Below, one piece after another: positions 34,227-50,660 of a DNA stretch of 64,000 bases; the stretch's first letter is position 1; each line of letters begins with the position of its first letter. The stretch covers positions 124,001 through 188,000 of the forward strand of contig CALKJI010000006.1 in assembly GCA_937995655.1 (NCBI GenBank), in the 5' to 3' direction. Under the pieces are notes generated by a model. That model searched no databases, had not been told where the DNA came from, and saw only the letters and a list, made by a program, of their open reading frames with translations. This stretch comes from an uncultured Pseudothermotoga sp. GTDB taxonomy: Bacteria; Thermotogota; Thermotogae; Thermotogales; DSM-5069. The position numbers were made by a program, and so were the translations under genes.

Positions 34227-34228
34227 TC

Positions 34229-35086
34229 CTACCACCTCCGTTTTGAATCAATAAGATTCAGAATCTTTTCATGATCGTGTTTTCTTTTGAAAAGTGGCTC
34301 TTGAGAATCCTTGTAGATCCTTTGTTGTGACTCAAAGGTGGGCCTTTCCTCTACATAGAAGACGCCCAAAGGCAAGGGCAATGCTTCTAAAGCCCTTTGA
34401 AAGGCCTCTTGAAGGTTCCTTTCGTTGTGATCCTTGAGATAGTAAGTGTTCTCCTTGAACCATTTGTAAGTGTTGATTTTGTTGAAAGTCACACAGGGTT
34501 GGAATATATCTACCAAAGAAAAACCTTTGTGCAAGATGGCCCTCTTTATGATCTTTTTTGTTTCCTCTACATCTCCGCAGAATGCTCGTGCTACAAAGGA
34601 ACATCTCAAAGAAAGCGCAACAGCTAGGGGATTAAAAGGCTCGTTCAGAACACCGTAAACTTGCACAGGTGTCGTGAAACCTTTTGAACTGGTGGGTGAA
34701 GCTTGACCTTTCGTCAGGCCATAGACCATGTTGTTGTGAACTAAAAGGGTGATGTCAGAGTTTCTTCTAACGGCATGTATAAAGTGGTTGCCTCCTTCTC
34801 CATACATGCAGCCGTCTCCACTCTCGACTACGACTACAAGATTAGGATTAGAAGTCTTTATTCCAACGGCTGCCGGCAAACTTCTTCCGTGTAAACCGTT
34901 GAAGTAGTTACACTTTAAGTATTGAGGTGCCTTTGCGGCCTGTCCGATTCCTGAGACCATTACCAAGTTCTTTGGATCGATGTTCAATTCTTCTAAGGCG
35001 GCTTTGACTATGTTGTGTATAGAATAATTTCCACAACCTGGGCACCATGCCATGTCTATATTTTGAAGGTCGAATCTTGTAGTCAT
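34229..35086 (-). CDS. korB: 2-oxoacid:ferredoxin oxidoreductase beta subunit
   Basis: This 285-residue TPP-binding subunit has [12 protein letters not shown] (near 14-25), [14 protein letters not shown], and the TPP/Mg motif [14 protein letters not shown] followed by [12 protein letters not shown]. It pairs with the alpha/gamma fusion upstream (4-bp overlap, ATGA) to oxidise a 2-oxoacid to acyl-CoA while reducing ferredoxin. Substrate (2-oxoglutarate, branched-chain or other) is not decided by sequence alone. Confidence 0.92.
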
Positions 35087-36777
35087 TTGGCTTCCTCCTT
35101 TATGAATCTTTGCAGTGCGTCTTTTATTTCTTCCACATAGAAAGGTAAACCATTGAATTTGTTGAGTCTGCTAAAATTGGCTAAACCAACTTCCATTTTC
35201 AAAAGCCTTCCAAGTTGTGATGTTGCATTTGATTCGATAACGAGAACCTTTTTCGCTCTATTTAGATATTCAACAAGATTAGATGGCAATGGATAAACTT
35301 GCTGTAGATGGACAACAGCCAATTTTTCAAAGCCTTGCGCAGCCTCAAGGACTATCTCTCTTGTTGAACCAAAACATATGGCAAGGTACTCATAGTCTTT
35401 GTTACCTATCAATTCTGCAGGGATTTCATCGGAAAAATTCTCTAACTTTCTCAGTCTTTTTTCAACCATAGTGGTTCTCAACGTAAAGTCTTCCGTTATT
35501 CTGCCAAGTTCATCGTGTTCATCGCTGTCTACACACACAAAACCTTCACCGTAACCGGGTATTCCCCTGGGTGATATACCGCTCGCTGTCACTTCATATC
35601 TCTTGTACTGGGGTGAAGTTTGCACAATGAAACTCTCTTGCTGGATTATCTTTGGAAGTTCACCAAGGTTGTAAATCGTGTCCATCAAGTACTGATCTGT
35701 TAGGACAAATACGGGAATTTGATATTTATCTGCTATCTTGAAAGCTTTCATCGTACAATAAAAAGCCTGCTCGAGATTTCCTGGCGCAAGAATCACTCTT
35801 GGAAATTCACCGTGGCCAGAAAATAGCGCAAAGAGTAAATCGCCTTGTTCAGTTCTTGTGGGAAGTCCTGTTGCGGGACCAGGTCTTTGAGCAAGATGTA
35901 CCACAATTGGACTTTCTATAGCGCCGGCAAGGCTCAAAGCTTCTACCATCAAAGCAAATCCCCCACCGCTTGTGGTTACAAGAGCCTTCGCCCCAGCATA
36001 CCACGCACCTAGAGCCATGTTCATAGCAGAAATTTCATCCTCCGCCTGCTCGACTACGATCTCAAAGTCCTTTGAATAGTTAGCAAGATTTGTCAGAACG
36101 CCTGTAGATGGAGACATGGGGTATGAAGAAACGAAATTACAGCCACCAGCTATAGCACCAAGTGCGACTGCTTCGGCGCCGTTTATTAACAGATGATTTT
36201 TCACATCTGGGTCTGTTTTCGGCTCTAAAATACCAAGATCTATGTTTTCTACAATGTATTCATAGCCCAGCTTCATTGCCAATCTATTTTCGCCACATAC
36301 CTTTGCTCCCTTGTTGCAAAACCATCTTTCAATTGCCTGTAATGAATCTTCTAACGGCAACTTGAGTAGGGAACACAACATACCCAAAACAACAGAATTT
36401 GAATAAACCTTATTTCCTGCTTTCAAAGCAAGCCCTGATATTGGAACTTCTCTGACATTTCCCGAGACGTTAGAAGTCTCTTTTGAGTCAGAATCTATAA
36501 AAACAAAGGTTTTTTCATCGATCCTATCTGAAAGCCTCTTTAGATGTATCTCACCTTGAGAGAGCGAGAAAAGAACATCGGTCTTCCTGCAGAATGCCCG
36601 CACGGGGCCGTCACTGATTCTTATCAAAGTTGAGTTACTTCCACCCCTAATACGAGACATGTATTCTTTGTAAGAGAAGACATTCAAACCATAGTGTTTC
36701 AGAATGTTTGGAAAAAGATACTCTATCGTCTGGATACCTTGACCGGCTTCACCACAAATAACGATTGAAAGATCCAC
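35083..36777 (-). CDS. korA: 2-oxoacid:ferredoxin oxidoreductase, gamma-alpha fusion subunit
   Basis: A 564-residue fusion. Residues about 1-180 are the gamma domain ([15 protein letters not shown], then [14 protein letters not shown]). Residues 195 onward are the alpha pyrimidine-binding domain ([63 protein letters not shown]). This organisation fits the OafO/KorAC type with a separate beta subunit. GTG start after AAGGGGGC. No delta (2x[4Fe-4S] ferredoxin) subunit is visible. Confidence 0.92.
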
Positions 36778-36799
36778 AAGTATGCCCCCTTGTGTTCGA

Positions 36800-36824
36800 A
36801 AAGCCCTGGTTTACCCAGGGCTTT
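36800..36824 (-). terminator. Intrinsic terminator-like hairpin after superoxide reductase gene
   Basis: Ten-base arms AAAGCCCTGG and CCAGGGCTTT around the loop TTTAC, 3 bp past the stop of the superoxide reductase gene (minus strand). The transcript has four Us after the stem. It lies between that gene and korA, so it may end the rubrerythrin-superoxide reductase message or reduce read-through. Confidence 0.65.
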
Positions 36825-36827
36825 AAA

Positions 36828-37220
36828 TTATTCGACTTCAATTCTTTGACTGTTTTCCCACAAACCGTGTATGTTGCAGTATGACAGGGCGAGAATCGTT
36901 CCAGATTTGTTGAGTTTCACTACAGTTTTTACCACTGGTTCTGTGTAGACGTCCCCTGTGTTAGGTCCTTTTACAGATTCACCATGAACGTTGAATTCAT
37001 AATTTCCGACTTCATACACATATGGGTCGCCATCTGGCTGGAAGAATACTTTAATCCACTTTATGTGATGTTCTGTGGTATTTGGGTGGGGAATCTCCTT
37101 TCCCACAGAGACTGTGATCTCTGTTTTTTCACCCTTCTTGGCTCTTTCAGGAGCCTCTATGACCGGTACATGTTTTTCCTTTTTGAAATCTTCCGATTTG
37201 ATAAAATCCGCAAGTTTCAT
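36828..37220 (-). CDS. Superoxide reductase (neelaredoxin)
   Basis: A 130-residue non-haem iron protein. The Fe(His)4Cys ligands are visible: HVPVIEAP near residue 17, HPNTTEHHIKW near 46-56, and CNIHGLW near 114-120. It reduces superoxide to peroxide without making oxygen. No N-terminal desulforedoxin domain, so it is the one-iron class. It follows rubrerythrin by 13 bp; rubrerythrin would remove the peroxide. Confidence 0.94.
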   Translation of the reverse strand: MKLADFIKSEDFKKEKHVPVIEAPERAKKGEKTEITVSVGKEIPHPNTTEHHIKWIKVFFQPDGDPYVYEVGNYEFNVHGESVKGPNTGDVYTEPVVKTVVKLNKSGTILALSYCNIHGLWENSQRIEVE

Positions 37221-37233
37221 ATTATTCCCTCCC

Positions 37234-37746
37234 TCAAACAGAGAATTCTATATACATCTTTTTTGCGGTACCGCAAACTGGACATTTTTCAGGTGCTTCA
37301 TTTTCTACCGTGTGGCCACAAACTGGACAGATGTAAATCTTGCTGGTTGGGTAATCTTCCTTTTTCTCAGCAAGACCCTTGGCTAGTTTGTACATTTCAG
37401 CGTGAATTTTTTCTGCTTCCCAAGCGTATCTTGTACTCCTTTCAGCACCGTTCTCCTGCTGAAACTGTGCGACGGTGTTGTAAACTGGGTACATTTCGTT
37501 GATTTCGAAGGTTTCGCCATCGATGCACTGCTGGACATTATCCTTCATTTCCTGGTAGATCTTTCCAAGTTCTCTGTAATGATTTCTAGCGTGAACAAAT
37601 TCAGCATAGGATATTGCTCTAAAGAGATTGGCAAGTTTTTTTAACCCTTTCCTCTCAGCCTCTTCTGCAAAGATCATGTACTTCATGTGCGCCATGCTCT
37701 CGCCGGCAAAGGCATCTTCCAAAAATTTCTTGGTCATATCTCTCAT
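37234..37746 (-). CDS. Rubrerythrin
   Basis: This 170-residue peroxidase has a ferritin-like diiron domain (about 1-130, with EDAFAGESMAHMKY, EAERKG and EFVHARNHY) and a C-terminal rubredoxin domain with CPVCGHTV and CPVCGTAK. The ATG at 37746 follows AAGGAGGTGAG; an in-frame GTG at 37755 lies inside the ribosome site. It reduces hydrogen peroxide with electrons from rubredoxin/ferredoxin in anaerobes. First gene of the oxygen-defence group. Confidence 0.95.
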   Translation of the reverse strand: MRDMTKKFLEDAFAGESMAHMKYMIFAEEAERKGLKKLANLFRAISYAEFVHARNHYRELGKIYQEMKDNVQQCIDGETFEINEMYPVYNTVAQFQQENGAERSTRYAWEAEKIHAEMYKLAKGLAEKKEDYPTSKIYICPVCGHTVENEAPEKCPVCGTAKKMYIEFSV

Positions 37747-37771
37747 CGATCTCACCTCCTTGTTTGTATAT

Positions 37772-37840: not shown

Positions 37841-38863
37841 TCAAGATCTCAAGCATAAGGATATGAGATCCTCAACTTTGGCAGTTGCAAGGCAGATCAC
37901 GGTATCAGCAGCACCATAATAAATCTTTAATTCACCATCCTCTAAAAGGGCCGCCGTTGGAAAGACGACGTTGTTTCTAAAGCCGTTGCTGATTTCATAA
38001 GTCTCTTCTGGCACTATGAGAGGTTCTTTACAAACTCCCAAAACTTTCGTTGGATCTTTCAGATCAAGTAACATGACCCCTGCCGTGTAACGTTTGGTCC
38101 AGGTTTCTTCCCAACCATTTTTTCCTCTCGATGGGTCGATGTCCACGGCGTGGAAGATCACCAGCCATCCTTTGTCTGTTTTGACCGGCGGTGCACCAGG
38201 ACCGATTTTGATGTTGGCGAATGGGACGTCTTCGACGCCAAGAAGGAGTTGACTGTCGCCCCAATATCTTAGATCGGGAGAAAAACTGATCCACATGTCG
38301 AACCTTTCCAAACCAAGTCTTCCATAAACCGGGAAGGGTCTCTCAAGTCTCGCGTATAATCCCTTTACCTTTTCTGGGAATAGTACAATATTTCTGTTGT
38401 CTGGCGTCGATAGATGTAAGATCTCGAATCCTTCAAAATCCTCCGTTGTTGCTATGCCTGCCCTTATCCCATGCCATGTATCTATGGCAAAGGTCATGTA
38501 AATCTTTCCATCGATCACAGATAACCTTGGGTCGTAGACCCTGAGAAAATCATCAACAACTGGTGGAAAATCTAACGGAGCTGGTTCAACGTTCCAAGAA
38601 ACACCATCTGTGCTGTAAGCAAGACCCAGGTTTGTACCTTCCAGTGTCTTCTCTTGAAAGGATCCAAAGTCGTTTCGAAAGACCATGACATACCGATCCT
38701 TCACCTTACAAACCCCTGGGTTGAACACAAGCGCCGAACTGTAGGGGATATCTTTGTAGGTAAGTATGGGGTTAGAAGGATGCCTTCTGACAACTTCTTG
38801 AGATCTCAGCGCCCCTATGGGTTTTGGTTCAAAAAACTTTCTGATTCCACTGAAGTCCATCAT
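37841..38863 (-). CDS. GH130 glycoside phosphorylase (mannoside type)
   Basis: A 340-residue five-bladed beta-propeller enzyme. VYDPRLSVIDGKIYMTFA and DNRNIVLFPEKVKGLYARLERP, cut here to DNRNIVLFPEK, match the GH130 catalytic region, with the Asp general acid in FLRVYDPR. GH130 enzymes cleave beta-mannosides with phosphate to give mannose-1-phosphate; the exact linkage is unknown. The start MMDFSG at 38863 follows GGGAGGG; a longer frame to 38938 lacks a ribosome site. It diverges from the ROK regulator at 39103, as in the Thermotoga maritima mannoside region (from memory). Confidence 0.88.
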   Translation of the reverse strand: MMDFSGIRKFFEPKPIGALRSQEVVRRHPSNPILTYKDIPYSSALVFNPGVCKVKDRYVMVFRNDFGSFQEKTLEGTNLGLAYSTDGVSWNVEPAPLDFPPVVDDFLRVYDPRLSVIDGKIYMTFAIDTWHGIRAGIATTEDFEGFEILHLSTPDNRNIVLFPEKVKGLYARLERPFPVYGRLGLERFDMWISFSPDLRYWGDSQLLLGVEDVPFANIKIGPGAPPVKTDKGWLVIFHAVDIDPSRGKNGWEETWTKRYTAGVMLLDLKDPTKVLGVCKEPLIVPEETYEISNGFRNNVVFPTAALLEDGELKIYYGAADTVICLATAKVEDLISLCLRS

Positions 38864-38947
38864 GTTAACAACCCTCCCTTCAATCACTTCAATGTTACAC
38901 AAAAGCTTGCGGACAGAGGTGACAGGATTTTTCAGCAAGAACTATGG

Positions 38948-38967
38948 TTATAGGTGATTATAGGTCA
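38948..38967. repeat. Tandem 10-bp repeat
   Basis: TTATAGGTGA (38948-38957) is followed directly by TTATAGGTCA (38958-38967). One helical turn apart, in the region between the divergent GH130 and ROK genes. Read on the minus strand, each copy includes TATAA and could form alternative -10 boxes for the GH130 gene, or a regulator site. Confidence 0.5.
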
Positions 38968-38985
38968 TTAATTTTCAAAAAACAG

Positions 38986-39006
38986 TAGTTAGCAAATACT
39001 AAATTA
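38986..39006. promoter_or_regulatory. Probable weaker ROK operator
   Basis: TAGTTAG, 7 bp, then TAAATTA. The left half is identical to the strong site at 39064-39089 and the right half matches in five of seven bases. The two sites are 78 bp apart. A second operator in the intergenic region would let one regulator control both divergent units. Confidence 0.4.
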
Positions 39007-39063
39007 GTTTCTATAAATTTTTCTATCGTGTTAACATTTGACAAAATTAATTGACAAGGCAAC

Positions 39064-39089
39064 ATTTAGTTAGTAAGACATAACTAAAT
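39064..39089. promoter_or_regulatory. ROK operator-like inverted repeat
   Basis: Perfect 9-bp arms ATTTAGTTA and TAACTAAAT, separated by 8 bp (GTAAGACA). It sits immediately upstream of the ROK gene ribosome site (GAGGTG at 39091) and overlaps the region expected for -10 (a TTGACA is at 39051). The placement is typical of an autoregulatory repressor site. Confidence 0.65.
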
Positions 39090-39102
39090 CGAGGTGTGTT
39101 TC

Positions 39103-40242
39103 TTGCTGACGGATCTTGAGGCTAAGGTTTTGAAGATTATTCGTGATGCCGATCAAATATCTCGGCTTGAAATAGCCAAAGTTTTGAATCTCAGTAAACC
39201 TGTTATTACTCAGGTAGTTTCACGTTTGATCAACAAAGGACTCGTTGTTGAATCAGGTGTTTCCAAGTCTTCTTCAGGTAGACCCAAGATCAATTTGAAG
39301 TTTGTTCCCGATGCCTTCTACTGTGTTGGCGCCGAACTCGAGGAGAATACCTTTGAAATCATCGTCACAGATCTTTTGGGAAGGGAAAAGATAACCTCTC
39401 AGAACAACACACCTCAGAAAATAGATTCCGCAGACATTGTAGCATGGTGTGTGGAGAAGATCAAGGAACTAATAAAGGAGTCTCACCTACCCAAAGAGAG
39501 GATTTTGGGTGTGGGAGTCGGTATATCGGCGATGGTGGAACCAAAGACAGGGATGGTGAGAACGGCTCCTGCTTTTGGTATGAAAAACTTCAATCTGCAG
39601 AGCATTCTTGAGAGAGAATTAAACTTACCTGTCTACGTAGCAAACAGAGTCAAACTGGTTGCCTTTGCCGAGCATAGACTCGGGGCATCTAAAGGTTTTA
39701 AGGACGCACTCTATGTTTATCTAGATAGCGGTCTTGGTTCTGCTCTGATCTTGAACGACGAGTTGTTTCAGGGTTTTTATGGCAAAGCAGGAGAACTTGG
39801 ATGGATGATTACAGACATCGACCTCACAAAAGACGACATGTGTTTTGAACAAGACTTTGGACATTTGGCAAGAAAAATATCTGGTCATTGTTTGAAGAGG
39901 TATTTGGCTGGAGTTGTTCAGGGCAACGATTTAACAGAGATCATCGATACAGTTAGGCAAGAAAAAAACGAGTTGGGGAAGAAATTGAAACGTTCCTTGA
40001 TGCATTTTGCTGCAGCGATTGCCAATGCCATACTCATGTTCGATCCGCAAGTGGTGATAATGAAAGGAAGAATTGGTCAAAGATATTTCAATCAGATCAC
40101 AAAGATCATTCTGGAATTTCTCCACAACTTGTTGCCACCACAATTTTATGAAAACTTGGAGTTTCGAAAGGGAATCATAGAGAAATATGACGTTGCGTTG
40201 GGTGGAGTCTTTTTGGTTCAAAAAAAGATCATGAACATCTAA
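39103..40242 (+). CDS. ROK-family transcriptional regulator, no zinc motif
   Basis: This 379-residue protein has an N-terminal winged HTH at about 1-60 (ISRLEIAKVLNLSKPVITQVV) and a ROK sugar-kinase-like domain (LGVGVGISAMVEPKTG, VYLDSGLGSALILN). Where ROK proteins usually have GxGH then CxCGxxGCxE, this one reads GELGWMITDIDL and no cysteine cluster, so it lacks the zinc site. TTG at 39103 is 6 bp after GAGGTG; a GTG at 39094 is inside that site. It starts the operon running to 46899; the ligand is probably a sugar from the imported glycan. Confidence 0.88.
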   Translation: MLTDLEAKVLKIIRDADQISRLEIAKVLNLSKPVITQVVSRLINKGLVVESGVSKSSSGRPKINLKFVPDAFYCVGAELEENTFEIIVTDLLGREKITSQNNTPQKIDSADIVAWCVEKIKELIKESHLPKERILGVGVGISAMVEPKTGMVRTAPAFGMKNFNLQSILERELNLPVYVANRVKLVAFAEHRLGASKGFKDALYVYLDSGLGSALILNDELFQGFYGKAGELGWMITDIDLTKDDMCFEQDFGHLARKISGHCLKRYLAGVVQGNDLTEIIDTVRQEKNELGKKLKRSLMHFAAAIANAILMFDPQVVIMKGRIGQRYFNQITKIILEFLHNLLPPQFYENLEFRKGIIEKYDVALGGVFLVQKKIMNI

Positions 40243-40263
40243 CACTCATAGGGAGGTGATTTT

Positions 40264-41505
40264 ATGAGGAAAGCCCTGGTTTTCTTGATGGTTTTAGTGG
40301 CGGTTCTATCGATGGCAGATGTCGTTTTGATGTGGTTTACAGACGGTCCAGATTATGACATCATGCAATCTCAGGTTGCAAAGTTTGAAAGGGCTTACGG
40401 TGAAAAGGTTGTAGTTTTGAACCTGCCTTACTATTTGGAGTACAAGCCCAAACTTGCGGCTATGGCAAAGGCTGGATCACCACCAGATGTGGCAAGAGAG
40501 ACCGATCTTTTACCCTGGCTAGAGTATGCGATAGACCTTAAACCCCTGGTCGAGAAGTACGCTGGCATGAAATTCGAAGAATGGCTTGAGAACGTTTCTT
40601 TCTACAAAGCGGGATTCAAGAAAATCTACGAGAAATTTGGAAAGGTCGTTGGAATACCCTACACCTCAGATGCTCATGCAATCTTTTATAACAAGGAGAT
40701 CTTCAAAAAAGCGGGTATAGAACCACCAAAGGACAGACCATGGACGATCGATGAATGGTACTCAGCAATGAAAAAGATCAAACAAAGCGGTGCGGCACGA
40801 TATGCCCTTGTTTACGATTACAGCCCTTACAGATTCGCGAACCTGTTGTATGTTTTTGGTGGAGGAATCTGGGATTCTGAGGGCAAGAACATAATTATCG
40901 ACTCAGCTGAGTCTATAGAAGCCTTGGAGTTTTTCGTTAAACTCCACGACGAAGATCTAATACCCAAAGCGGTGTGGCTCACAGGTGATGCACCGGCGAA
41001 ATACTTCCAAAATGGAATGGCTGCTATGTATGTCTCCGGTACTTGGATGCTGGCACAATTCAAAGAACAACTCAAGTTTGACTGGGGTGCCATCATGTGG
41101 CCGTACAAACGCCAGAGGGCAGTTATGACTGGTGGAAAGTATATCGTTCCATTCACTGAAAAGGGTGCCAAACTGGCTTTCTTCCTAACAAACCAGGAAA
41201 ATCTTCCAGAATTCGCCGGGAAACTCTTCCTGGTACCTGACAGAAAGGATCTCAGTGATAAGGTAACGATTGAGGATCCTGTGATTAAACCAGTTTACGA
41301 TTTGGTGATGAAAGATCTTAATGAGTCAGGACGGGGAAGCCTTGTTGCCGATTGGTACGATCCCGATACAGCTTCTATAATACAAAAGAACAGAACGGTC
41401 ATAATCGATGCAATAAAATCTGCTGTTGCTAAAGAAAAGACTGCCTCTCAGGCTTTCAAAGATCTTGCAAAGTTTTTAAGGGAAGAGGCTGCAAAGAGTC
41501 GTTAA
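40264..41505 (+). CDS. Sugar ABC transporter binding protein (ROK locus)
   Basis: A 413-residue SBP_bac_1 protein with signal peptide (ALVFLMVLVAVLSMA, then DVVLMWF) and no lipobox. The core has AKAGSPPDVARETDLLPW, VGIPYTSDAHAIFYNKEIF and NGMAAMYVSGTWML, typical of the maltose/multiple-sugar class. It follows the ROK gene by 21 bp with GGGAGG. Sugar unknown; a GH130-compatible beta-mannoside oligosaccharide is possible. Confidence 0.9.
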   Translation: MRKALVFLMVLVAVLSMADVVLMWFTDGPDYDIMQSQVAKFERAYGEKVVVLNLPYYLEYKPKLAAMAKAGSPPDVARETDLLPWLEYAIDLKPLVEKYAGMKFEEWLENVSFYKAGFKKIYEKFGKVVGIPYTSDAHAIFYNKEIFKKAGIEPPKDRPWTIDEWYSAMKKIKQSGAARYALVYDYSPYRFANLLYVFGGGIWDSEGKNIIIDSAESIEALEFFVKLHDEDLIPKAVWLTGDAPAKYFQNGMAAMYVSGTWMLAQFKEQLKFDWGAIMWPYKRQRAVMTGGKYIVPFTEKGAKLAFFLTNQENLPEFAGKLFLVPDRKDLSDKVTIEDPVIKPVYDLVMKDLNESGRGSLVADWYDPDTASIIQKNRTVIIDAIKSAVAKEKTASQAFKDLAKFLREEAAKSR

Positions 41506-41511
41506 ATCTTC

Positions 41512-41535
41512 TTGGGTGGAGTATCCTCCACCCAA
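41512..41535 (+). terminator. Stem-loop between binding-protein and permease genes
   Basis: Perfect 10-bp arms TTGGGTGGAG and CTCCACCCAA around loop TATC, then TTGTTTCT. It begins 6 bp after the binding-protein stop and 27 bp before the permease start. Likely partial terminator or mRNA-stabilising element, giving more binding protein than permease. Confidence 0.75.
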
Positions 41536-41561
41536 TTGTTTCTATAATTGGAGGGAAGATC

Positions 41562-42425
41562 TTGAAGAGAAAGGTAATACCTTGGCTTTTCCTTTTACCC
41601 AGTCTTTTGATCTTTGTCATATTCATAGTGACACCGGCTTTGAGTAGTTTTTATTATTCTTTCACCGACTATGACATGCTCACCTTGAGGGGAAAATTCG
41701 TAAGTTTTTCTAATTTCATCAATCTGTTTAGAATGCCAAGTGATTTTGGTCGTGTTTTGATCAGGACATTTTTTTACACATTGCTGGTTGTTCCTCTGGT
41801 TTTTTTTATGTCTTTGCTTTTGTCGGTTATTACCACATCGGATTTCATTTACGGCAAGTCTTTTCTGCGCGCACTTTTTTACTGGCCCTGGCTCTTATCT
41901 CCATCGATCATAGGAATCAGCTGGAAATGGTTTTTGGATTACGACGCAGGGCTGATAAATATACTTCTTCTCAAGGGTGGCTTCAATCCAATATCATGGT
42001 TGATAGACAAGAGATTGGCCTTTCTTAGTGTTTTGTTGGTGACCGTTTGGAATGTTGCTGGTTATTTTATGGTCATGTTCAATGCTGCTCTAACAGCTAT
42101 TCCAAACGAAGTCTATGAAGCCGCGGCATTGGATGGTGCAAATCGATGGACAAGGTTTTGGAAGATAATCTTTCCTTTACTCAAACCTACTTCTGTGCTT
42201 GTAATAGTTCTTTCCACGATCATGGCTATGAGAAGTTTTGAGGTTATATACGTCTTCACCGCTGGAGGGCCTGGCACTTCAACTACCATGGTTGCCCAGA
42301 GAATATATCACACTGCTTTCATGGAAAGAAGACTCGGTGTGGCATCGAGCATGTCGGTCATATTGTTCGTGATCTTGATGATTCTCTCACTACTGCAATT
42401 CAGAATCTTGGAGGAGAAACAATGA
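41562..42425 (+). CDS. Sugar ABC transporter permease (MalF type)
   Basis: This 287-residue permease has six predicted TM helices and the EAA loop YEAAALDGANRWTRFWKIIFP near residue 186, shown here shortened to EAAALDGANRW. N-terminus VIPWLFLLPSLLIFVIF. TTG start after GGAGGGAAG. Its stop overlaps the next permease start. Confidence 0.92.
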   Translation: MKRKVIPWLFLLPSLLIFVIFIVTPALSSFYYSFTDYDMLTLRGKFVSFSNFINLFRMPSDFGRVLIRTFFYTLLVVPLVFFMSLLLSVITTSDFIYGKSFLRALFYWPWLLSPSIIGISWKWFLDYDAGLINILLLKGGFNPISWLIDKRLAFLSVLLVTVWNVAGYFMVMFNAALTAIPNEVYEAAALDGANRWTRFWKIIFPLLKPTSVLVIVLSTIMAMRSFEVIYVFTAGGPGTSTTMVAQRIYHTAFMERRLGVASSMSVILFVILMILSLLQFRILEEKQ

Positions 42426-43246
42426 AAAAAAGAAAGAGAGTTCTGTTAGTGATTCTCAATCTCATTGTGTATACTTTTGCCATCTTTTATGTTCTTCCCA
42501 TAGTTTGGACCGTGTTTTCAAGTTTTAAGGAAGAAGCTGATCTGTTTTCATGGCCTCCTCGGTTAATAACCAAGTTGACCCTGATAAACTATAGAAACAT
42601 TTTTTCAAAGACTCCATTGCCTCTATTCATGCGAAATTCTTTCTTGATATCAATTTCCGCCACCGTCTTGACCGTTATGATAAGCGTAATGAGCGGTTAT
42701 GCACTGGCAAAATACCGATTTGGTGCGAAAGGTTTTGTTTCTTCCTTTACCTTGTCGATGCTCATGATCCCTCTTCAGGTGATAATGGTACCAATTTATT
42801 TAGTGCTGTCAAAGATCGGTATGATAAATACATTATGGGGACTGATAATACCACCTTCGGCAACACCTACAGGCATCTTTCTTGCGCAAAGGTATTTACT
42901 GTCCGCGCTCCCAGATGAGATTTTAGAGAGTGCAAGGATCGACGGGGCAGGAGAGTTGAGGATATTTTTCAGGATCGTTTTACCTCTTTCGACGCCACTT
43001 ATCGCAGCCCTTTCTGTACTTTCTTTCACATGGAGATGGAATGATTTTCTCTGGCCATTGATCGTTGTCGGTACGCCAAAACTATACACTATTCAGCTGG
43101 CTTTGGGTATGTATGCCGGTGAACATATAGTACAGTGGGGGCCTTTGTTGGCTATGACCACCATTTCAATGTTGCCTGTCTTGGTTGTTTTCCTTTTGCT
43201 TCAGAAGTACTTTGTAAAAGGTATCACCACAGGTGCGATAAAGTGA
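42422..43246 (+). CDS. Sugar ABC transporter permease (MalG type)
   Basis: A 274-residue permease with six TM helices and EAA loop ESARIDGAGELRIFFRIVLP (20 residues, near 165-184). Forms the pore with the preceding permease. No ATP-binding subunit lies in this operon, so a shared MsmK-like ATPase elsewhere is expected. 4-bp overlap with the previous gene. Confidence 0.92.
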   Translation: MKKRKRVLLVILNLIVYTFAIFYVLPIVWTVFSSFKEEADLFSWPPRLITKLTLINYRNIFSKTPLPLFMRNSFLISISATVLTVMISVMSGYALAKYRFGAKGFVSSFTLSMLMIPLQVIMVPIYLVLSKIGMINTLWGLIIPPSATPTGIFLAQRYLLSALPDEILESARIDGAGELRIFFRIVLPLSTPLIAALSVLSFTWRWNDFLWPLIVVGTPKLYTIQLALGMYAGEHIVQWGPLLAMTTISMLPVLVVFLLLQKYFVKGITTGAIK

Positions 43247-43259
43247 AGGAGTGAATTCT

Positions 43260-45059
43260 TTGGACTACAAAATCTTGGAAAATGGCCTTGTTTCATACAC
43301 AAAAGCTGTGAACAGTTATGTACTTTCCAATGTTACCGAGAACTTTGTGTTAAAGGGTGCAAAACCCGACAAACTGTATTCTTCCAAAGAAGGTTTACTG
43401 TTACAGTTTTCAAAGTCAAATTTCGAGGAACCTTTGACAGCACAGTATTGGCCAAATGGATGCAGCTTCCAGAAGAATGGAATGAGCTGGTCCTTTCTTA
43501 CCTCTGACAAAGCAAGATCGATTCTGTTGATTGTAAATGGTCTCAGAAGGGTTGAGCTTCGTTTTGAAGTGCCACTCAAGAGAAGTTTCAAAGTACCTTT
43601 TCTTGAGCCGGTAGACTTTGAAAAGCCGCTGGAGGTTAACCTGTCAAAAAGATCGATAAATTTCTCAAATCTTTTGAAAATAAGCATTTTGGAAGGAAAA
43701 ATTGTGGACTTTGTACACAAAGATGGCAGGATTTTTGAACTAATAGTTGAGAGTAACGACAGTAATTTGGTCAAAATCTCTTTTGGTGAAGATACTTCAG
43801 CCGATGGTTCTGAAGAAAATGAAAACAGAGTGTATTTACGAAAACTTTGTGAATACTGTCCACCAGGCTTGAACAATTTGGAAAAGTCTTTGTACTTGTT
43901 TGCATTGCATACGGCAATTTCTTGCTGGAAGGATTTCGGTGTTGCCATGGCCTTATCGGCAGGTAACAACTACAGTTTTCCTCCGAGAACCTATTTCAGA
44001 GATGGCTTTTGGACATCGCTTACACTTCTTCGAAGTAACCCAGGAATCGTCAGAAAGCAGATCCTTGCTTTAGCCCAAGGCGTGCACGAAGATGGTTGTC
44101 CAAGTGCAGTGATGTTTTTGAACGACGATGAGAGGAAATTACTGAAAGATTTCATTTCAAAATCACCACAGCTTGCAAAATTCGTTAGATACGAAAACGA
44201 TTGGTGGTCAGACCATCACGATTCTGGTCCATTCTTTGTTTTGTTGGTTTACGAATATCTCAAGTTCACCGGTGACATGTCAATTTTGTTCGAGAAGGTT
44301 GATAAAAAGACTATCTTAGAGAAGTTAGATTTAATAATGCTTCGAATAGATAGATACCCCAAAGATAAAGATGGTTTGATGCTCAGACCGTACGATTCGA
44401 ACGATTGGGCAGATAATGTTTTCAGAAATGGCTTGGTTTCTTACGATCTAGCACTTCAAATAGCTGCTTTAGGGAAAGCTATTGAGATTTTAAAACTTGT
44501 CGCTGACGATGCGAAGAAGGAAAACCTGCAGCAAAAATACAACAAGTTGAAGATAAAATTCAATCAAAAGCTCTTTAATCATGAAAAAGGATACTATTAT
44601 GATTTTGTCGGGACTTATGTGGAGGATCATTTGAGTCTAGACACAGTTGTAGCCATCCTTTACGATCTTGCAGACAAAGACAAAGCTCTATCGACACTTT
44701 CTAAAATGGGTGAGTTACTGCAAACAAAGAACAACCCCCAGCAACCTTATGGTGATTGGGGTGTCATGAATGTCTGGCCTACTTACAGGAAAAGATCTCA
44801 TCTATTTGGGAAGAGTGCCTTTGCTTTCAGATACCATAATGCGAGTTGTTGGCCTTATCTGAGTTGTGCCTTTGCTTTGGCACAGTTCAAAAATGGTTTT
44901 GATCCGTCCTACGCACTTATCAGATGGTGGGAGTATTCATTGGAAAAGGGTTGGTTGAACTTGGTTGAGTACTATTCGCCAGTTTATCCTCGAGGTGGAT
45001 TAAACCAAGGTTGGAGTTCTTTTGCAGGTTTTGTCATAGATGAAATATACAGAAAGTGA
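43260..45059 (+). CDS. Six-hairpin (alpha/alpha)6 glycosidase-like protein
   Basis: A 599-residue cytoplasmic protein. Residues about 1-200 are beta-rich; after that it is helical and resembles (alpha/alpha)6 glycosidases of the GH63/GH78/debranching type. Possible active-site regions are YFRDGFWTSLTLL, HEDGCPSAVMF, YDSNDWADNVFRNG and PYGDWGVMNVWPTY. I cannot assign a GH family. Acidic residues Asp/Glu in RDGFW and GDWG are candidates for catalysis. TTG at 43260, 5-8 bp after AAGGAG, is preferred over the GTG at 43251 within that site. It probably hydrolyses the imported oligosaccharide. Confidence 0.6.
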   Translation: MDYKILENGLVSYTKAVNSYVLSNVTENFVLKGAKPDKLYSSKEGLLLQFSKSNFEEPLTAQYWPNGCSFQKNGMSWSFLTSDKARSILLIVNGLRRVELRFEVPLKRSFKVPFLEPVDFEKPLEVNLSKRSINFSNLLKISILEGKIVDFVHKDGRIFELIVESNDSNLVKISFGEDTSADGSEENENRVYLRKLCEYCPPGLNNLEKSLYLFALHTAISCWKDFGVAMALSAGNNYSFPPRTYFRDGFWTSLTLLRSNPGIVRKQILALAQGVHEDGCPSAVMFLNDDERKLLKDFISKSPQLAKFVRYENDWWSDHHDSGPFFVLLVYEYLKFTGDMSILFEKVDKKTILEKLDLIMLRIDRYPKDKDGLMLRPYDSNDWADNVFRNGLVSYDLALQIAALGKAIEILKLVADDAKKENLQQKYNKLKIKFNQKLFNHEKGYYYDFVGTYVEDHLSLDTVVAILYDLADKDKALSTLSKMGELLQTKNNPQQPYGDWGVMNVWPTYRKRSHLFGKSAFAFRYHNASCWPYLSCAFALAQFKNGFDPSYALIRWWEYSLEKGWLNLVEYYSPVYPRGGLNQGWSSFAGFVIDEIYRK

Positions 45060-45075
45060 ACTGGGAGGTGCCTTC

Positions 45076-46899
45076 ATGGTTGAAAAATGGAATCATTATC
45101 CAGTCTATATGTGGGCAGGTCCAGGGACGATAAGAATCAACAAGGTCAAGTTCCCAGGTAAGTCAATCGATGAAGAGGTTCACATCAAAGGAGGTTTGCA
45201 CGAGGGCGCTGCTCGCCTTAAGAAGATGGGATACAACTGGGCTTATTGTACCTATAACTGGGGTTTCCCACCGGAGATCGAAAAAGAAGATCACGAATAT
45301 TTCAAGAGGACTGTGGAAGAATATCATAGTGAAGGACTAAAGGTCTTTGGTTATGTACAGTTTTCCAACGTGGTTTTTACAGGATCGTATTTGACAAAGC
45401 GCTGGTATGCTCTGGATCCATATGGAGAAAGGATAAATTACTACTCTGGGAGATACTTAATCTGTCCAACAGATCCCCAATGGAAGGAACACTTAAGGCA
45501 AGTCGTTGTTGGAATAGTTAACGCAGGAGCCGATGGTGTTTTCTTTGATAACATCTTTGGCTCGTGGTTTGGTTTTCGCCCTTGTTACTGTGACAGATGT
45601 CAAGAATTGTTTAAAGAATTTGCAACAAGGCAAGGTTTTGAAGTAAAAGGTATACCTCATCATCTTGGTGAAGATATAGATTCAAAGTTGTATTTGATCT
45701 GGCGAAGAAAGGTGATTTGGCAAACGGTGCAAGAACTTTCGAAAGTTGCAAGAGAGTTAAAGCCAGATATTTTGATCTCATCGAACTCCTTCGAAGCGGG
45801 TATAAGTAAACTTTCCATCATGGCTGGAATAGACTTGAGAGAGGCATTCAGGGTTCAAGACTTAGTGATGATTGAAAATCACCAGATGCCAAGAAAGTTT
45901 AACGGGATACAAATCTTCAACACCATGACCTATAGAATAGCACACGCACACAGCAAAGGAAAACCAGTGACCTCTGTATCTTACATGTTTGGAATCGGTG
46001 ATGACTCAGTGTACCCAACCAGAATCTATCTTCAAACGATGGCAGAAGCTTATTCAAATGACTCGGTCATGGTTCTAAAGGGGACGGAATATTTTCACAA
46101 TGGGAAATGGACGTTGATAACCGATGACCAGTTCCAAGAGGTACGCAACCAGATTGAAGACTATCACAAATGGTACAAAAAGAGCCTTGAAAAAAAACTA
46201 TACGGTGAGAGAGCAACAAGGATAGGTATCTTCCACCCATACGACTCATTGACTTTTCACTGGGAAAGGACAGCATTACCCTTCTTCGCGGCGCAACATG
46301 AACTTATTCGATCTAATATAGATTACAGAGTGGTTTGGGATGACTTTGATGGGATCGATCTTTTGATTGTTCCACCTATCTTTGAAGAGAACGAGATAAA
46401 AGTAGTGAAAGAATTCAATAGAGAGAAGATCTTTCTTGGCTATTGTCCATTTGAGGGTGAGAAGTTGATATGGAAAGATGAATATAAAGTGATGTCTTCA
46501 CACCAAAAACCTGATCAGCAAATGGCTTTGGAACAAGATCTTGCATTGTTGAACTTTGCTACTTATTTCAATGACCCCCGCTGGAGAGAGAGACTTCAAA
46601 AAGATGGCTTCTTGTTCTTCAACTATCTGAACTACTGCTACACATTCACACATCCATTTGATCGCGATGAACTCATCAAGATGGTCGAGGGTTATCAAAA
46701 TTGGAAAGTAAAATCCAATGGGTTTGTCGTAGTTACTTCTTACATACAAGATAATTTTTTAAAAATACACGTTGTGAACCTAGAAGAAACAGAGGTAAAG
46801 ATCGATCTATCGCTGCCACCAAATTATAAATTAAAAGATCTTCTTGAGTACAAGTACGATAACGCCTTTGTGCACAGGATTTATTTTATTGCTATTTGA
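45076..46899 (+). CDS. Putative TIM-barrel glycosidase-like protein
   Basis: A 607-residue protein without signal peptide. About residues 30-330 read as a (beta/alpha)8 barrel: DGVFFDNIFGSWFGFRPCYC (near 157) places an Asp-Asn pair at a strand end as in amylase/melibiase-like barrels, and PCYCDRCQELF, a Cys-rich loop, suggests a metal or structural site. A second domain, about 385-475, resembles the Rossmann-type trimerisation domain of GH42-like enzymes (DLLIVPPIFEEN), and a small beta domain ends the chain. I do not recognise a GH family. ATG at 45076 follows GGGAGGTG. Last gene of the ROK-controlled operon. Confidence 0.55.
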   Translation: MVEKWNHYPVYMWAGPGTIRINKVKFPGKSIDEEVHIKGGLHEGAARLKKMGYNWAYCTYNWGFPPEIEKEDHEYFKRTVEEYHSEGLKVFGYVQFSNVVFTGSYLTKRWYALDPYGERINYYSGRYLICPTDPQWKEHLRQVVVGIVNAGADGVFFDNIFGSWFGFRPCYCDRCQELFKEFATRQGFEVKGIPHHLGEDIDSKLYLIWRRKVIWQTVQELSKVARELKPDILISSNSFEAGISKLSIMAGIDLREAFRVQDLVMIENHQMPRKFNGIQIFNTMTYRIAHAHSKGKPVTSVSYMFGIGDDSVYPTRIYLQTMAEAYSNDSVMVLKGTEYFHNGKWTLITDDQFQEVRNQIEDYHKWYKKSLEKKLYGERATRIGIFHPYDSLTFHWERTALPFFAAQHELIRSNIDYRVVWDDFDGIDLLIVPPIFEENEIKVVKEFNREKIFLGYCPFEGEKLIWKDEYKVMSSHQKPDQQMALEQDLALLNFATYFNDPRWRERLQKDGFLFFNYLNYCYTFTHPFDRDELIKMVEGYQNWKVKSNGFVVVTSYIQDNFLKIHVVNLEETEVKIDLSLPPNYKLKDLLEYKYDNAFVHRIYFIAI

Positions 46900-46907
46900 T
46901 CTTCAAA

Positions 46908-46935
46908 AACAAGTGAGGCAAAAGCCTCACTTGTT
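46908..46935. terminator. Bidirectional terminator
   Basis: Perfect 12-bp arms AACAAGTGAGGC and GCCTCACTTGTT with loop AAAA, then CTTT on the plus strand and TTTTGAAG on the minus. It lies 9 bp after the plus-strand gene and overlaps the final codons of the minus-strand dehydrogenase. Confidence 0.8.
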
Positions 46936-47913
46936 CTTTAAGATCTCTGTGTTAACCAAATTTGGTGGTATCTCACCTTTCAAAGCTTTTACAATATTTT
47001 CGGCTGCCATGATAGACATCTTTGTTCTTGTAGCGTGGGATGCTGAGCCAATGTGCGGAGCAAGAACGACATTTTCTAATTCAAGAAGCTCGGGCTCAAC
47101 CTGTGGTTCGTTCTCAAATACATCTAATGCAGCTCCTCTGATCCATTTTTCTTCCAGTGCTTTCACAAGGGCTTTTTCATCCACAATGGGACCACGTGCA
47201 GTATTTATCAGGTAAGCTCCCTTTTTCATGAGTTTGAACTGATCTTCCCCGATCAAATGATGTGTCTGCTTTGTGAGTGGAAGATGCAAAGTGATGAAAT
47301 CAGATTCCTTTAAAAGTGTATTTAAATCTACATAAGTTGCATTAAGTTCTCTCTCTATTTCTTCAGATACTCTCGATCGGCTGTAATAAAGAACCTTCAT
47401 TTTGAAACCTATCGCTCGTCTTGCAACGGCTTGACCTATTCTGCCAAAACCAATTATTCCAAGCGTTGCTCCATAAAGGTCTGTACCTAAAAGTAGCATA
47501 GGTTCCCATCCACGAAACTTTCCTGCCCTGACAAATTTGTCACCTTCAACAATCCTTCTTGCAACTGCCATCATCAAAGCCCAGGTCAAGTCAGCGGTAG
47601 TCTCTGTAAGAACACCGGGCGTGTTAGTCACCATTATTCCCCTCTTGGTAGCCTCTTCAACATCGATGTTGTTGTACCCAACAGCATAATTGGCAATAAC
47701 TTTCAGTCTTGGGCCCGCCGCTTCCATAACTTCTTTGTCTATAACATCTGCCAAAAGGCACAGAAGGGCATCGATACCCTTCACTTTTTCAACAAGTATC
47801 CCTTTGGGTATGAGCCCATCGTGATCGCTCACTTCAACATCGAAGTTTTCATACAATATCTTCAGTCCTTCTTCTGGTATCTTGCTCGTGACAAACACCC
47901 TAGGTCTTGTCAT
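46927..47913 (-). CDS. D-2-hydroxyacid dehydrogenase (glyoxylate/hydroxypyruvate reductase type)
   Basis: A 328-residue NAD(P)-linked enzyme. NAD loop LGIIGFGRIGQAVARRAIG (near 149-167), NTARGPIVDEKAL with the catalytic-region Arg, FENEPQVEP (Glu) and LAPHIGSA (His). The N-terminal VFVTSKIPEEGLKIL matches the GyaR/glyoxylate reductase class. As the last gene of a leftward operon with an HpaI aldolase it could reduce a 2-keto or semialdehyde product, e.g. hydroxypyruvate or glyoxylate; this is inference. Confidence 0.88.
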   Translation of the reverse strand: MTRPRVFVTSKIPEEGLKILYENFDVEVSDHDGLIPKGILVEKVKGIDALLCLLADVIDKEVMEAAGPRLKVIANYAVGYNNIDVEEATKRGIMVTNTPGVLTETTADLTWALMMAVARRIVEGDKFVRAGKFRGWEPMLLLGTDLYGATLGIIGFGRIGQAVARRAIGFKMKVLYYSRSRVSEEIERELNATYVDLNTLLKESDFITLHLPLTKQTHHLIGEDQFKLMKKGAYLINTARGPIVDEKALVKALEEKWIRGAALDVFENEPQVEPELLELENVVLAPHIGSASHATRTKMSIMAAENIVKALKGEIPPNLVNTEILKNK

Positions 47914-48852
47914 TCATCGAACCTCCTTTAGAAACTTTGAGTATGCCGCAAGGAATGTCCTTTTTGCATTCGCAATCACAAGGTCTGGGTCCTCATCTGG
48001 TAATGGCTTGATTTCAAAGGATATCACAGGCTTTTGTGTTGCCACCCTTTTTTCAAAATAATTATTTTTCCAAAGAGTCCTCAAGAAATAAGTGAGTTCT
48101 TCAACATCATTCACCCCACCATTTATGCCAAACCTTGGATGAAGATCTCCATAGAGGGGATGGTCTTTCTCAAGGACGGCGTTACCTATGTGAACGTGTG
48201 TTATAAAGGGTGAAAGTAAGCTGACGGTGTAAAATGGATCTTCAAAAAGTAATGGCTGATGAGATAGATCAACGGTGAGACCAAAGTTTCCGCAGTGGTT
48301 TCTAACTCTAGACGCGATCTCAAAAGCAACAGGTGCTGGCCCAACTAGAGCCTTTTTGTCGACTGCCCAATCAAAGATTTCTAAGTTCACTGAGATCGTA
48401 CGATCGTCCTCTATACATTTCGATTTGGCATAATCACAGAGTTCCACGAGAGATTTCACAAGCTGGTCTTTCGCTTTTTCAATCTCAGCTTTAGGTATCT
48501 TGCCGCTCAATAAAGCTACTGTTCTTGCACCACTGATATATGCTTTATCGATGGCCGATTTGAGTTCTTGAACCGCTTCGTTTCTTTCCCTTTCGTCGAT
48601 AGATCCAAGATCGAGTTTTTTAGTCAACACCACTGGCTGTGCTGCAACGAGTAATTCAACCTTTGCAGTTTCGCACATTTTTCCTATTTCCTTGAAAAGA
48701 TCTTCATCTATGAGTGCACTCACTTCTATTGCCTGGAAAAATTCGTCGGTGAGTACTCTCTTGATCGTTGAAAGTATCTCTTCCTCGGTCCTTGCGTCTG
48801 GATAAGCCATGAAATGTATCAAACCCATGTGAAATTGATCGTGCCAAATCAA
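47914..48852 (-). CDS. Sugar phosphate isomerase/epimerase (AP-endonuclease-2-like TIM barrel)
   Basis: A 312-residue xylose-isomerase-like barrel. Metal-binding residues are seen in SVNLEIFDW (Glu), LTVDLSHQPLLF (Asp/His), FITHVHIGNAVL (His), and SFEIKP (Glu) near the end. Substrate unknown. It begins 13 bp after the aldolase and stops next to the dehydrogenase start. Possibly an epimerase or isomerase in the same pathway. Confidence 0.8.
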   Translation of the reverse strand: MIWHDQFHMGLIHFMAYPDARTEEEILSTIKRVLTDEFFQAIEVSALIDEDLFKEIGKMCETAKVELLVAAQPVVLTKKLDLGSIDERERNEAVQELKSAIDKAYISGARTVALLSGKIPKAEIEKAKDQLVKSLVELCDYAKSKCIEDDRTISVNLEIFDWAVDKKALVGPAPVAFEIASRVRNHCGNFGLTVDLSHQPLLFEDPFYTVSLLSPFITHVHIGNAVLEKDHPLYGDLHPRFGINGGVNDVEELTYFLRTLWKNNYFEKRVATQKPVISFEIKPLPDEDPDLVIANAKRTFLAAYSKFLKEVR

Positions 48853-48865
48853 CTTGCACCGCCTC

Positions 48866-49639
48866 CTAACTGAGCCTTAAAGAGTCTACGATCCTTTTTC
48901 CCCCATCTACAATAAGGTTTATGTCACTTGAACATACTAAAAGTCTCATACCTTTGTTCATCCAAGGTTTTATGGCATCTGGTGTTGAAAGATGAATACC
49001 GCATGGCAGACCAAGATCGAGAGATTTTGTAACAAATTTCTCTATCTGTTGTTGAACATAGGGGTTATCGACTTCGCCGGGATAACCAAGGTCTTGAGAT
49101 AGATCGTTTGGTCCGAGCAAGAGTGCATCGATCCCGGGCATGATTAATTCTTCGAGATTATCTATTGCCTTTTTATTTTCGATTTGGAGAATTATCATCG
49201 TGTTCTCGTTTGCCCATTTGATATACTCGTCCTTCCTAACAGATGAAAAGCCTGTTGGAGCCTTTCTCGTTGCCATGCCCCTTGCGCCCATGGGGTAGTA
49301 CTTAGTAGCTTTTATGATTTGTTCAACGATTTCTTTTTCTTGAGCTTGTGGTATCACAAGACCTTCTGCACCACAATCAAGGGGTCTTGACAAGTTGTCA
49401 TGACCAAACCGAGTTGGAACTCTGACGATGGGTGTTATCTCGCTTGCCTTGGCAGCCCAGATCATGTCTTGCACTGTTTCAAGAGTGAACGATGAATGTT
49501 CCATGTCTATGATGAAGAAGTCAAAACCTGCAGTGGCAAGCATCTGAGCTATACTTGGTGTTCTTATTTCACTCACCATTGTTCCGATAACTGTTTTGCC
49601 TTCTTTCAAAAGTTTCTTCACCTTGTTTACTTTCATCAA
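48866..49639 (-). CDS. HpcH/HpaI family aldolase
   Basis: A 257-residue class II pyruvate aldolase-like enzyme. Conserved parts are GTMVSEIRTPSIAQMLATAG, FIIDMEHSSF (near 42-51, catalytic His), RVPTRFGHDNLSRPLDCGAE and ILQIENKKAID (metal-binding Glu), then LLLGPNDLSQDLG. Family members split 4-hydroxy-2-keto acids (5-keto-4-deoxyglucarate, 2-keto-3-deoxyrhamnonate, HHED) to pyruvate and an aldehyde. Its neighbours, two hydroxyacid dehydrogenases, suggest a sugar-acid route. ATGA overlap with the upstream dehydrogenase. Confidence 0.88.
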   Translation of the reverse strand: MMKVNKVKKLLKEGKTVIGTMVSEIRTPSIAQMLATAGFDFFIIDMEHSSFTLETVQDMIWAAKASEITPIVRVPTRFGHDNLSRPLDCGAEGLVIPQAQEKEIVEQIIKATKYYPMGARGMATRKAPTGFSSVRKDEYIKWANENTMIILQIENKKAIDNLEELIMPGIDALLLGPNDLSQDLGYPGEVDNPYVQQQIEKFVTKSLDLGLPCGIHLSTPDAIKPWMNKGMRLLVCSSDINLIVDGGKRIVDSLRLS

Positions 49640-50613
49640 TCCACCTCGTATCCATATTTTTTCAAAAGATGTAGATTGGCTGGAAAGGTTGGTTTTTTTC
49701 CAGAAAGGACCTCAATGACGCCCTGTGCAGCATCTCGAGCCATTCTAAAAGTGCATTCCTTTGTCAAAGCAGAGTTGTGTGGTGTGAGTAAGATCTTATC
49801 ACAACTGAAAAAGGGATGATCAGACATTGGTGGTTCATCAACGAAAACATCTGTGGCTGCTCCGGAGATCCATCCTTCTTTCAAAGCTTTCAAAAGTGCA
49901 TTTTCATCCCACAACGAGCCGCGCGCCATATTTATGATGAAAGCAGTTGGTTTCATAAGTCTCAACTGTGGTTCACCTATCAAATTTTTTGTTTCTTCTG
50001 TGAGTGGTGCATGTATTGTGACAAAGTCAGAGCCCTTCAAAAGTGATTCCAAGGGTACAAGTTCTGCACCGATTTCGGCAGCTTTTTTTCTATCGACGTA
50101 TGGGTCAAAAGCCAGTATCTCCATCGAAAAAGCCGCCTGGCATTTCTTGGCTACCAATGTACCTATTCTCCCCAAGCCTATGATTCCTAAGGTTTTTCCC
50201 TCTAAATCTATAGTTGAAAAGAGATCTCTTACTTTGAAATTGTTGTTCCTTGTCTCAAAATCCATCTGTTTGATTTTTTTCGCTAATGCGAGGATGAACA
50301 TGATAGTCGCTTCTGCTACCGAAACAGCGTTTGCATTCGGTGTATTCACAACCCAGATACCTCTTTTTGAGGCTTCTTCAAGATCTACGTTATCCAAGCC
50401 GACACCATGGCGAGCTATCACCTTCAGTTTTTTAGCATTTTGAATGACTCTGGCATTGAAAGGTGATGTTCTAACTATGACACCATCGACATGGGTTATT
50501 TCTCCTGCCACGATTTCTGGATCGGCACTGGAAGCATGAACAATCTCAAAGTTTGCTTCTTTTAACATCTGTAGACCAATTTCATGAATCGGTTGGATGA
50601 TCATGACCTTCAC
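49636..50613 (-). CDS. D-2-hydroxyacid dehydrogenase (PGDH-like)
   Basis: A 325-residue paralogue of the 46927 gene. NAD loop LGIIGLGRIGTLVAKK, NMARGSLWDENALL, VDEPPMSDHPFF and LTPHNSALT. First gene of the operon. The GTG at 50613 lies 6 bp after GGAGGG; a longer frame to 50643 starts before the ribosome site. It is closer to SerA/lactate dehydrogenase-like proteins than to the GyaR type, but substrate is unknown. Confidence 0.87.
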   Translation of the reverse strand: MKVMIIQPIHEIGLQMLKEANFEIVHASSADPEIVAGEITHVDGVIVRTSPFNARVIQNAKKLKVIARHGVGLDNVDLEEASKRGIWVVNTPNANAVSVAEATIMFILALAKKIKQMDFETRNNNFKVRDLFSTIDLEGKTLGIIGLGRIGTLVAKKCQAAFSMEILAFDPYVDRKKAAEIGAELVPLESLLKGSDFVTIHAPLTEETKNLIGEPQLRLMKPTAFIINMARGSLWDENALLKALKEGWISGAATDVFVDEPPMSDHPFFSCDKILLTPHNSALTKECTFRMARDAAQGVIEVLSGKKPTFPANLHLLKKYGYEVD

Positions 50614-50660
50614 CTTTATCCCTCCGAAGATTATGATTATCACTTTCGTAATGACCAGTA

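Follow-up and report, generated by a model that had tools for sequence, protein, structure and literature searches.

A candidate, putatively ROK-regulated glycan module of Pseudothermotoga with two glycosidase-like proteins that probably represent new families or branch deeply within known superfamilies

What do the last two genes of a sugar-transport operon in an uncultured Pseudothermotoga sp. encode, and do their products belong to glycoside hydrolase (GH) families that are already described? The operon lies in a 64,000-nucleotide stretch of contig CALKJI010000006.1 (assembly GCA_937995655.1, positions 124,001 to 188,000; referred to as the window), which belongs to a 2.1 Mb Thermotogaceae genome, and the two genes encode a six-hairpin protein (SH) and a barrel protein with a Cys-rich loop (TB). 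The original prediction, made from the sequence, took both to be unassignable to any GH family and thus candidates for new glycosidase families acting with a mannoside phosphorylase of family GH130. We report that SH and TB, judged from their sequences, are probably new families or deep branches rather than categorically new proteins, since their fold and mechanism class are familiar. We also lean, by a modest measure, towards the view that positions 37841 to 46899 constitute a stand-alone, ROK-regulated module for the uptake and dismantling of a glycan. The features of this region are as follows:

37841 to 38863, minus strand: dedicated GH130 enzyme of phosphorylase type (PF04041, 2e-48; alignment with TM1225 and UhgbMP)
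39064 to 39089, no strand: predicted ROK operator, inverted repeat ATTTAGTTA-gtaagaca-TAACTAAAT (intergenic alignment, genome pattern count)
39094 to 40242, plus strand: ROK-family transcriptional regulator with winged helix-turn-helix (PF00480, 3.6e-35, and helix-turn-helix models)
40264 to 41505, plus strand: extracellular sugar-binding protein (SBP) with signal peptide (PF13416/PF01547; hydrophobic N terminus)
41512 to 41535, plus strand: 10-bp hairpin with T-rich tail, 3' of the SBP gene, attenuator-like but weakly indicated (8 such sites versus 7.1 expected)
41562 to 42425, plus strand: ABC sugar permease, MalF type (PF00528)
42422 to 43246, plus strand: ABC sugar permease, MalG type (PF00528)
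43251 to 45059, plus strand: SH, cytoplasmic six-hairpin glycosidase-like protein (AF2 model, Foldseek, invariant acids, Pfam)
45076 to 46899, plus strand: TB, cytoplasmic protein with barrel, Rossmann-like and beta-sandwich parts and a Cys4 cluster (alignments, hhalign, GHL6 at 31.9 bits)

The transporter, the ROK regulator and the GH130 gene divergent from them are thus present as predicted. Junctions between the plus-strand genes range from a 4-bp overlap to a gap of at most 56 bp, and the genes from the ROK regulator to TB therefore look like one operon. SH has a GTG start and comprises 602 aa. For TB the listed open reading frame (ORF) begins at 45040, but the start common to the homologues is at MVEKW, which makes the ATG at 45076, 16 bp past the SH stop, the most likely true start and gives 607 aa. 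The GH130 start is conserved at 38863 or 38860, with the longest ORF reaching 38938. Judged by hydrophobicity the SBP carries a signal peptide, while SH and TB, in agreement with the original prediction, and likewise GH130, carry none; this supports its proposal that the imported oligosaccharide would be processed inside the cell together with a phosphorylase-type GH130 enzyme.

Among 11 genomes of the family, SH and TB were found in seven, and the dedicated GH130 in the same seven (63-80% identity in the six relatives), with orthologues confined to genomes that have SH and TB; the other four encode only GH130 paralogues with at most 41% identity. Since the same seven genomes have all three genes and the other four none, GH130, SH and TB travel together in this family. 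The gene order of the window recurs in five relatives (G009, G006, G004, G005 and G003), and the identity levels among homologues (68-83% for TB, 48-69% for SH) together with the unbroken synteny exclude chance ORFs. In one of them (G005:C11:228629-229530; L062, L067) the dedicated GH130 is split into two frames, either a decayed gene or a sequencing error, with SH and TB intact. On G101 contig C141 (L052:7436-8497) a TB fragment, with an in-frame TAG within the match, comes directly after a truncated ROK gene; the central part of the operon is absent, which would fit either a deletion remnant or a mis-assembly. When GTDB contigs were scanned by pattern for TB, the single find was in one Pseudothermotoga metagenome-assembled genome; tblastn with TB against plasmids and with SH against phages gave no match. 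No characterised relative of SH or TB was found in the literature under the terms tried.

The six-hairpin call for SH was borne out by an AF2 model (pLDDT 84.5, nine sequences) with an N-terminal beta-sandwich of approximately 180 residues followed by an alpha-helical barrel. Foldseek searches with this model placed GH94 phosphorylases first (E 1.4e-17, chitobiose phosphorylase 1v7v at the top), then GH116 and GH63 (GH63 at E 1.6e-15), at 10-13% identity to these nearest solved folds. With Pfam, SH scores 40 bits against DUF608 (GH116; 3.7e-10, cut-off 26.3), covering profile positions 93-218 of 361, and 23.9 bits against GDE_C (2.4e-5, cut-off 21). Other SH homologues match GDE_C, GH94 or MGH1-like instead of DUF608, as expected of a branch belonging to none of these families.

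Twelve acids are invariant among 11 SH homologues, including the rhizobial ones: D251, D317, D324, D342, D385, D388, D399, E458, D459, D464, D502 and E573. D388 (codon 44412-44414) aligns with the Asp of the TYD motif, the GH116 acid/base position, in a solved glucosylceramidase, and with a Glu of a GDE-like paralogue, while E573 (codon 44967-44969) aligns with a Glu that precedes the QAWS motif in that paralogue. The hhalign comparison of SH and the paralogue gave E 3.2e-15 and a score of 127 (at most 26 over 40 shuffles); with E. coli YgjK (GH63) as partner, SH aligned over no more than 41 helix columns, which yielded no residue mapping. A second six-hairpin, GDE-like protein of approximately 1000 aa (G000:C2:98779-99546, L017), with the motifs YFGRDSEW, YHEGTVWP and PHQAWSES, is kept across the family. 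We predict D388 as general acid and E573 as general base, a pair typical of inverting hydrolases, and the simplest reading is that SH would act as a single-displacement inverting hydrolase.

SH might instead be a divergent member of GH116 or of the debranching-enzyme family GH133, as the two Pfam matches above cut-off, the hhalign match to the GDE-like paralogue and a rhizobial annotation would have it. It shares its fold and acid/base Asp position with the GH116 beta-glucosidases TxGH116 and TeGH116. In TxGH116, however, the nucleophile E441 lies 152 residues before the acid/base D593, whereas the SH homologues have no invariant Glu before residue 458, leaving the nucleophile position empty, and the Pfam match is partial; SH was for this reason rejected as a GH116 enzyme despite the DUF608 match and the acid/base Asp. 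With the inverting hydrolases of GH63/MGH1-like and GH133 (GDE_C) SH shares the fold, the RD, YH-x-WP and QAWS-like motifs and the predicted acid and base positions, but the similarity is at the profile level only and SH has the distinct conserved blocks DWWSDHHDS and DWADNVFRNG. Given also that the preferred Pfam family varies between homologues and that the operon has no glycogen genes, we regard membership of either family as quite improbable.

A GH94-type phosphorylase, in which case SH and GH130 would both yield sugar 1-phosphates, is a slightly better but still unlikely alternative. GH94 enzymes lead the Foldseek list, and they (1v7v; cellobiose phosphorylase 8ho8) share with SH the beta-sandwich, the (alpha/alpha)6 barrel and an Asp acid in a DW-D motif; the GH94 acid motif is DWND, which the DWADN motif of SH resembles. 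PF17167 (Glyco_hydro_94) gives weak matches, one distant homologue reaching 29.6 bits, but the SH of the window scores 15.1 bits and stays below the cut-off of 27. Moreover, GH94 enzymes comprise approximately 800 residues versus 600 for SH, at approximately 11-12% identity, and the extra invariant Glu of SH, E573, occupies the place of the general base in hydrolases, a residue that phosphorylases can do without. The inverting-hydrolase reading of SH is the one we keep.

For TB, the predicted barrel with a Cys-rich loop was corroborated by alignment: C130 and the Cys of the CYCDRC loop (C170, C172 and C175) are invariant and fall on the GH42 beta-galactosidase Zn cluster, and we predict a metal-binding, Zn-type cluster. 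Comparison with Thermotogaceae GH42 by hhalign covered 232 columns (E 2.2e-7, score 64.5; shuffled maximum 28), and barrel strands and Cys4 cluster are shared with the GH42 enzyme A4-beta-Gal (1kwg). However, the GH42 acid/base Glu after beta4 (DNE; TDNEYG in A4-beta-Gal) is replaced by I, M or V in all five aligned TB homologues, which rules out TB as a usual working GH42 enzyme despite the Cys4 cluster. By the motif DGVFFDN the invariant D158 of TB (codon 45547-45549) would lie at the end of beta4; it follows strand 154-157 in a low-confidence AF2 model (pLDDT 46.9, otherwise unusable), and E267 (codon 45874-45876) aligns to the GH42 beta6 region. We predict D158 as one catalytic residue and E267, not E240, as the second.

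This arrangement resembles that published for a GH151 alpha-L-fucosidase, in which the nucleophile is D154 on beta4, the acid/base residue is E235 on beta6 and the domains follow one another as barrel, Rossmann and sandwich (PMC10154630). The likeness would be one in outline, short of membership. That TB is a GH151 alpha-L-fucosidase or its immediate sister, and hence part of a family already known and perhaps listed in CAZy, is nevertheless an alternative of appreciable, if minor, probability. Its best Pfam match is GHL6 (PF14871; 31.9 bits for the whole protein and 35.2 bits in the genome-search stretch, cut-off 35), a model that the GH151 enzyme Mfuc3 is reported to match together with the GH42 middle domain (PMC4723247), and TB is alike in length class and, by motif, in three-domain order to GH151 enzymes (ALfuk2, Blon_0346, Mfuc3; PMC10154630, PMC4723247). 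Against this, the TB match to the GH42 middle domain is marginal (hhalign probability 6.5%), the operon has no fucose-specific gene, and phmmer and profile searches of the PDB up to E 10 matched no fucosidase, the presence of 6TVK in the PDB copy not having been checked. The Cys cluster of TB is not described for GH151 in the same two papers. Other GHL6-matching Thermotogota proteins were inspected and set aside as not close relatives of TB; they lack the Cys cluster.

The claim that neither protein can be assigned to a GH family thus holds insofar as sequence searches of NCBIfam and the PDB gave no confident assignment and the catalytic residues exclude GH116 for SH and GH42 for TB, but not for Pfam, where SH exceeds two cut-offs. 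Similarly, both proteins fail the defining catalytic tests of their best-matching families and are candidates for new families or subfamilies, while the Pfam scores of SH and the resemblance of TB to GHL6/GH151 and the GH42 superfamily suggest deep branches of superfamilies already known.

The dedicated GH130 shares with the GH130_2 enzymes TM1225 and UhgbMP the catalytic core and the phosphate-site residues, i.e. the YDPR motif, the Lys of KIGxG and the His of FHAV. A Tyr before the catalytic Asp is the GH130_1/2 signature, as opposed to the Glu of the GH130_NC group (PMC4264767). By expectation it would be a beta-1,4-mannoside phosphorylase, in a clade of its own: it differs from TM1225 and UhgbMP in a clade-specific insertion around GKNGWEExWTKRY, after the conserved active-site His, and has at most 41% identity to paralogues in the same family.

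With respect to regulation, the inverted repeat at 39064-39089 lies just upstream of the ROK start, and the rest of the aligned intergenic regions has diverged. Its core, TTAGTTA-N8-TAACTAA at 39066-39087, is retained exactly as TTRGTTA-N8-TAACTAA in the syntenic loci; it was found by intergenic alignment and was not detected in a strict-palindrome search (16-22 bp). Across the whole genome the pattern matches perfectly once, never with one mismatch and five times with two; read backwards, as a control, it gave 27 sites. A single genomic site conserved in relatives fits an autoregulated local regulon, and the module looks like one, with the ROK protein presumably binding this predicted operator. 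A link to the Thermotoga maritima UgtR/TM1228 'hypothetical sugar' regulon (PMC3750489) was considered and not established.

Beyond the family, SH, but not TB, was found in other Thermotogota and rhizobia, again next to an ABC importer. Two other Thermotogota families have SH after homologous SBP, MalF and MalG genes (SBP identity 49% and 36-37%). A PIG-L (BshB1-like) deacetylase gene lies between the MalG-type permease gene and SH in these (L047:10259-10912, L051:5394-6059, L049:7569-8243 and L050:8218-8886), which suggests that the imported glycan contains an N-acetylated sugar. One of the families has sugar-acid dehydrogenases and an FGGY kinase as SH neighbours, the other GH2 beta-glucuronidase-like and GH4 genes. 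Upstream of the SH transporter genes, L049:1886-4036 and L050:2534-4684 encode a 716-aa protein in which a xylose-isomerase-like barrel is fused to a Cgl0159-like aldolase domain. On rhizobial plasmids SH again has homologous importer genes nearby, and its neighbours include a ROK kinase and a ROK regulator as well as permeases and GH28; one homologue there (L053:11467-13209, CP091033.1) is labelled 'glycogen debranching protein' in a neighbourhood without glycogen genes, and the label is probably wrong. The importer-SH pair is thus the stable core of these neighbourhoods, with TB plus GH130, PIG-L or a kinase added in particular lineages, and this suggests an imported small glycan that in several lineages bears an N-acetylated sugar. 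The proposed partnership with a mannoside phosphorylase accordingly holds for the seven genomes of the family and not for SH at large, and beta-mannose need not belong to the substrate of SH itself, since in other families SH is found without GH130 or TB, and its rhizobial loci lack GH130 as well.

From the genes, their synteny and co-occurrence, the conserved operator, the SH fold and the conserved acids we infer the following activities, order of steps and substrate for the module. The SBP and two permeases would import a short oligosaccharide with a beta-linked mannose, presumably energised by a shared ATPase encoded elsewhere. In the cytoplasm GH130 would phosphorolyse the terminal beta-mannoside to give mannose 1-phosphate. 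TB, with its GH42-architecture barrel and GH151-like Asp/Glu pair, may take off an alpha-linked substituent by a retaining mechanism, and SH, acting as an inverting exo-glycosidase through the acid D388 and the base E573, may cut the remaining core linkage. An amino-sugar core such as Man-beta-1,4-GlcNAc-beta-1,4-GlcNAc, possibly fucosylated, is our leading but weak guess for the substrate, because SH recurs beside PIG-L and a homologous transporter in two other Thermotogota families.

A plant or microbial gum oligosaccharide, i.e. a xanthan-type Man-beta-1,4-GlcA side chain or glucomannan, could take its place, an alternative of similarly modest probability. A GH130 phosphorylase for Man-beta-1,4-GlcA is known (PMC8950772), and SH adjoins GH2 beta-glucuronidase-like and GH4 genes in another family and GH28 in rhizobia; on the other hand, the PIG-L genes next to SH in two families speak for N-acetylated sugars, and the operon of the window has no uronate enzyme. 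Several points weigh against the pathway as we propose it, with an amino-sugar core as substrate: TB matches no PDB fucosidase in the searches above, the choice of E267 over E240 follows from alignment given the poor TB model, SH is found in other families without GH130 or TB, and the amino-sugar idea draws on gene neighbourhood only.

Next to the module, a convergent sugar-acid cluster on the minus strand (window positions 46927-50643) encodes two D-2-hydroxyacid dehydrogenases, a xylose-isomerase-like protein and an HpcH/HpaI aldolase; it adjoins the module in G009 too, and LacI and GH2 genes come after it. On the GH130 side, positions 33771-37755 hold peroxiredoxin-like, two-subunit 2-oxoacid oxidoreductase-like and rubrerythrin-like genes, which judged by eye are apparently unrelated to the sugar module.

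Taken at its fullest, and held tentatively, the locus would encode an undescribed thermophile pathway for a mannosylated, possibly N-glycan-core-like, oligosaccharide, with SH as a new inverting (alpha/alpha)6 family of Thermotogota and rhizobia, TB as a new retaining family in which the GH42 Zn-barrel is reused but carries an Asp/Glu pair where GH42 enzymes have a Glu pair, and a GH130 clade of new acceptor specificity. If so, the three cytoplasmic enzymes that this small locus provides would be thermostable and new in specificity, and two of them would belong to unassigned branches. The conserved acids open the mechanism to direct tests, and the specific ROK sensor together with the SBP could report the natural substrate.

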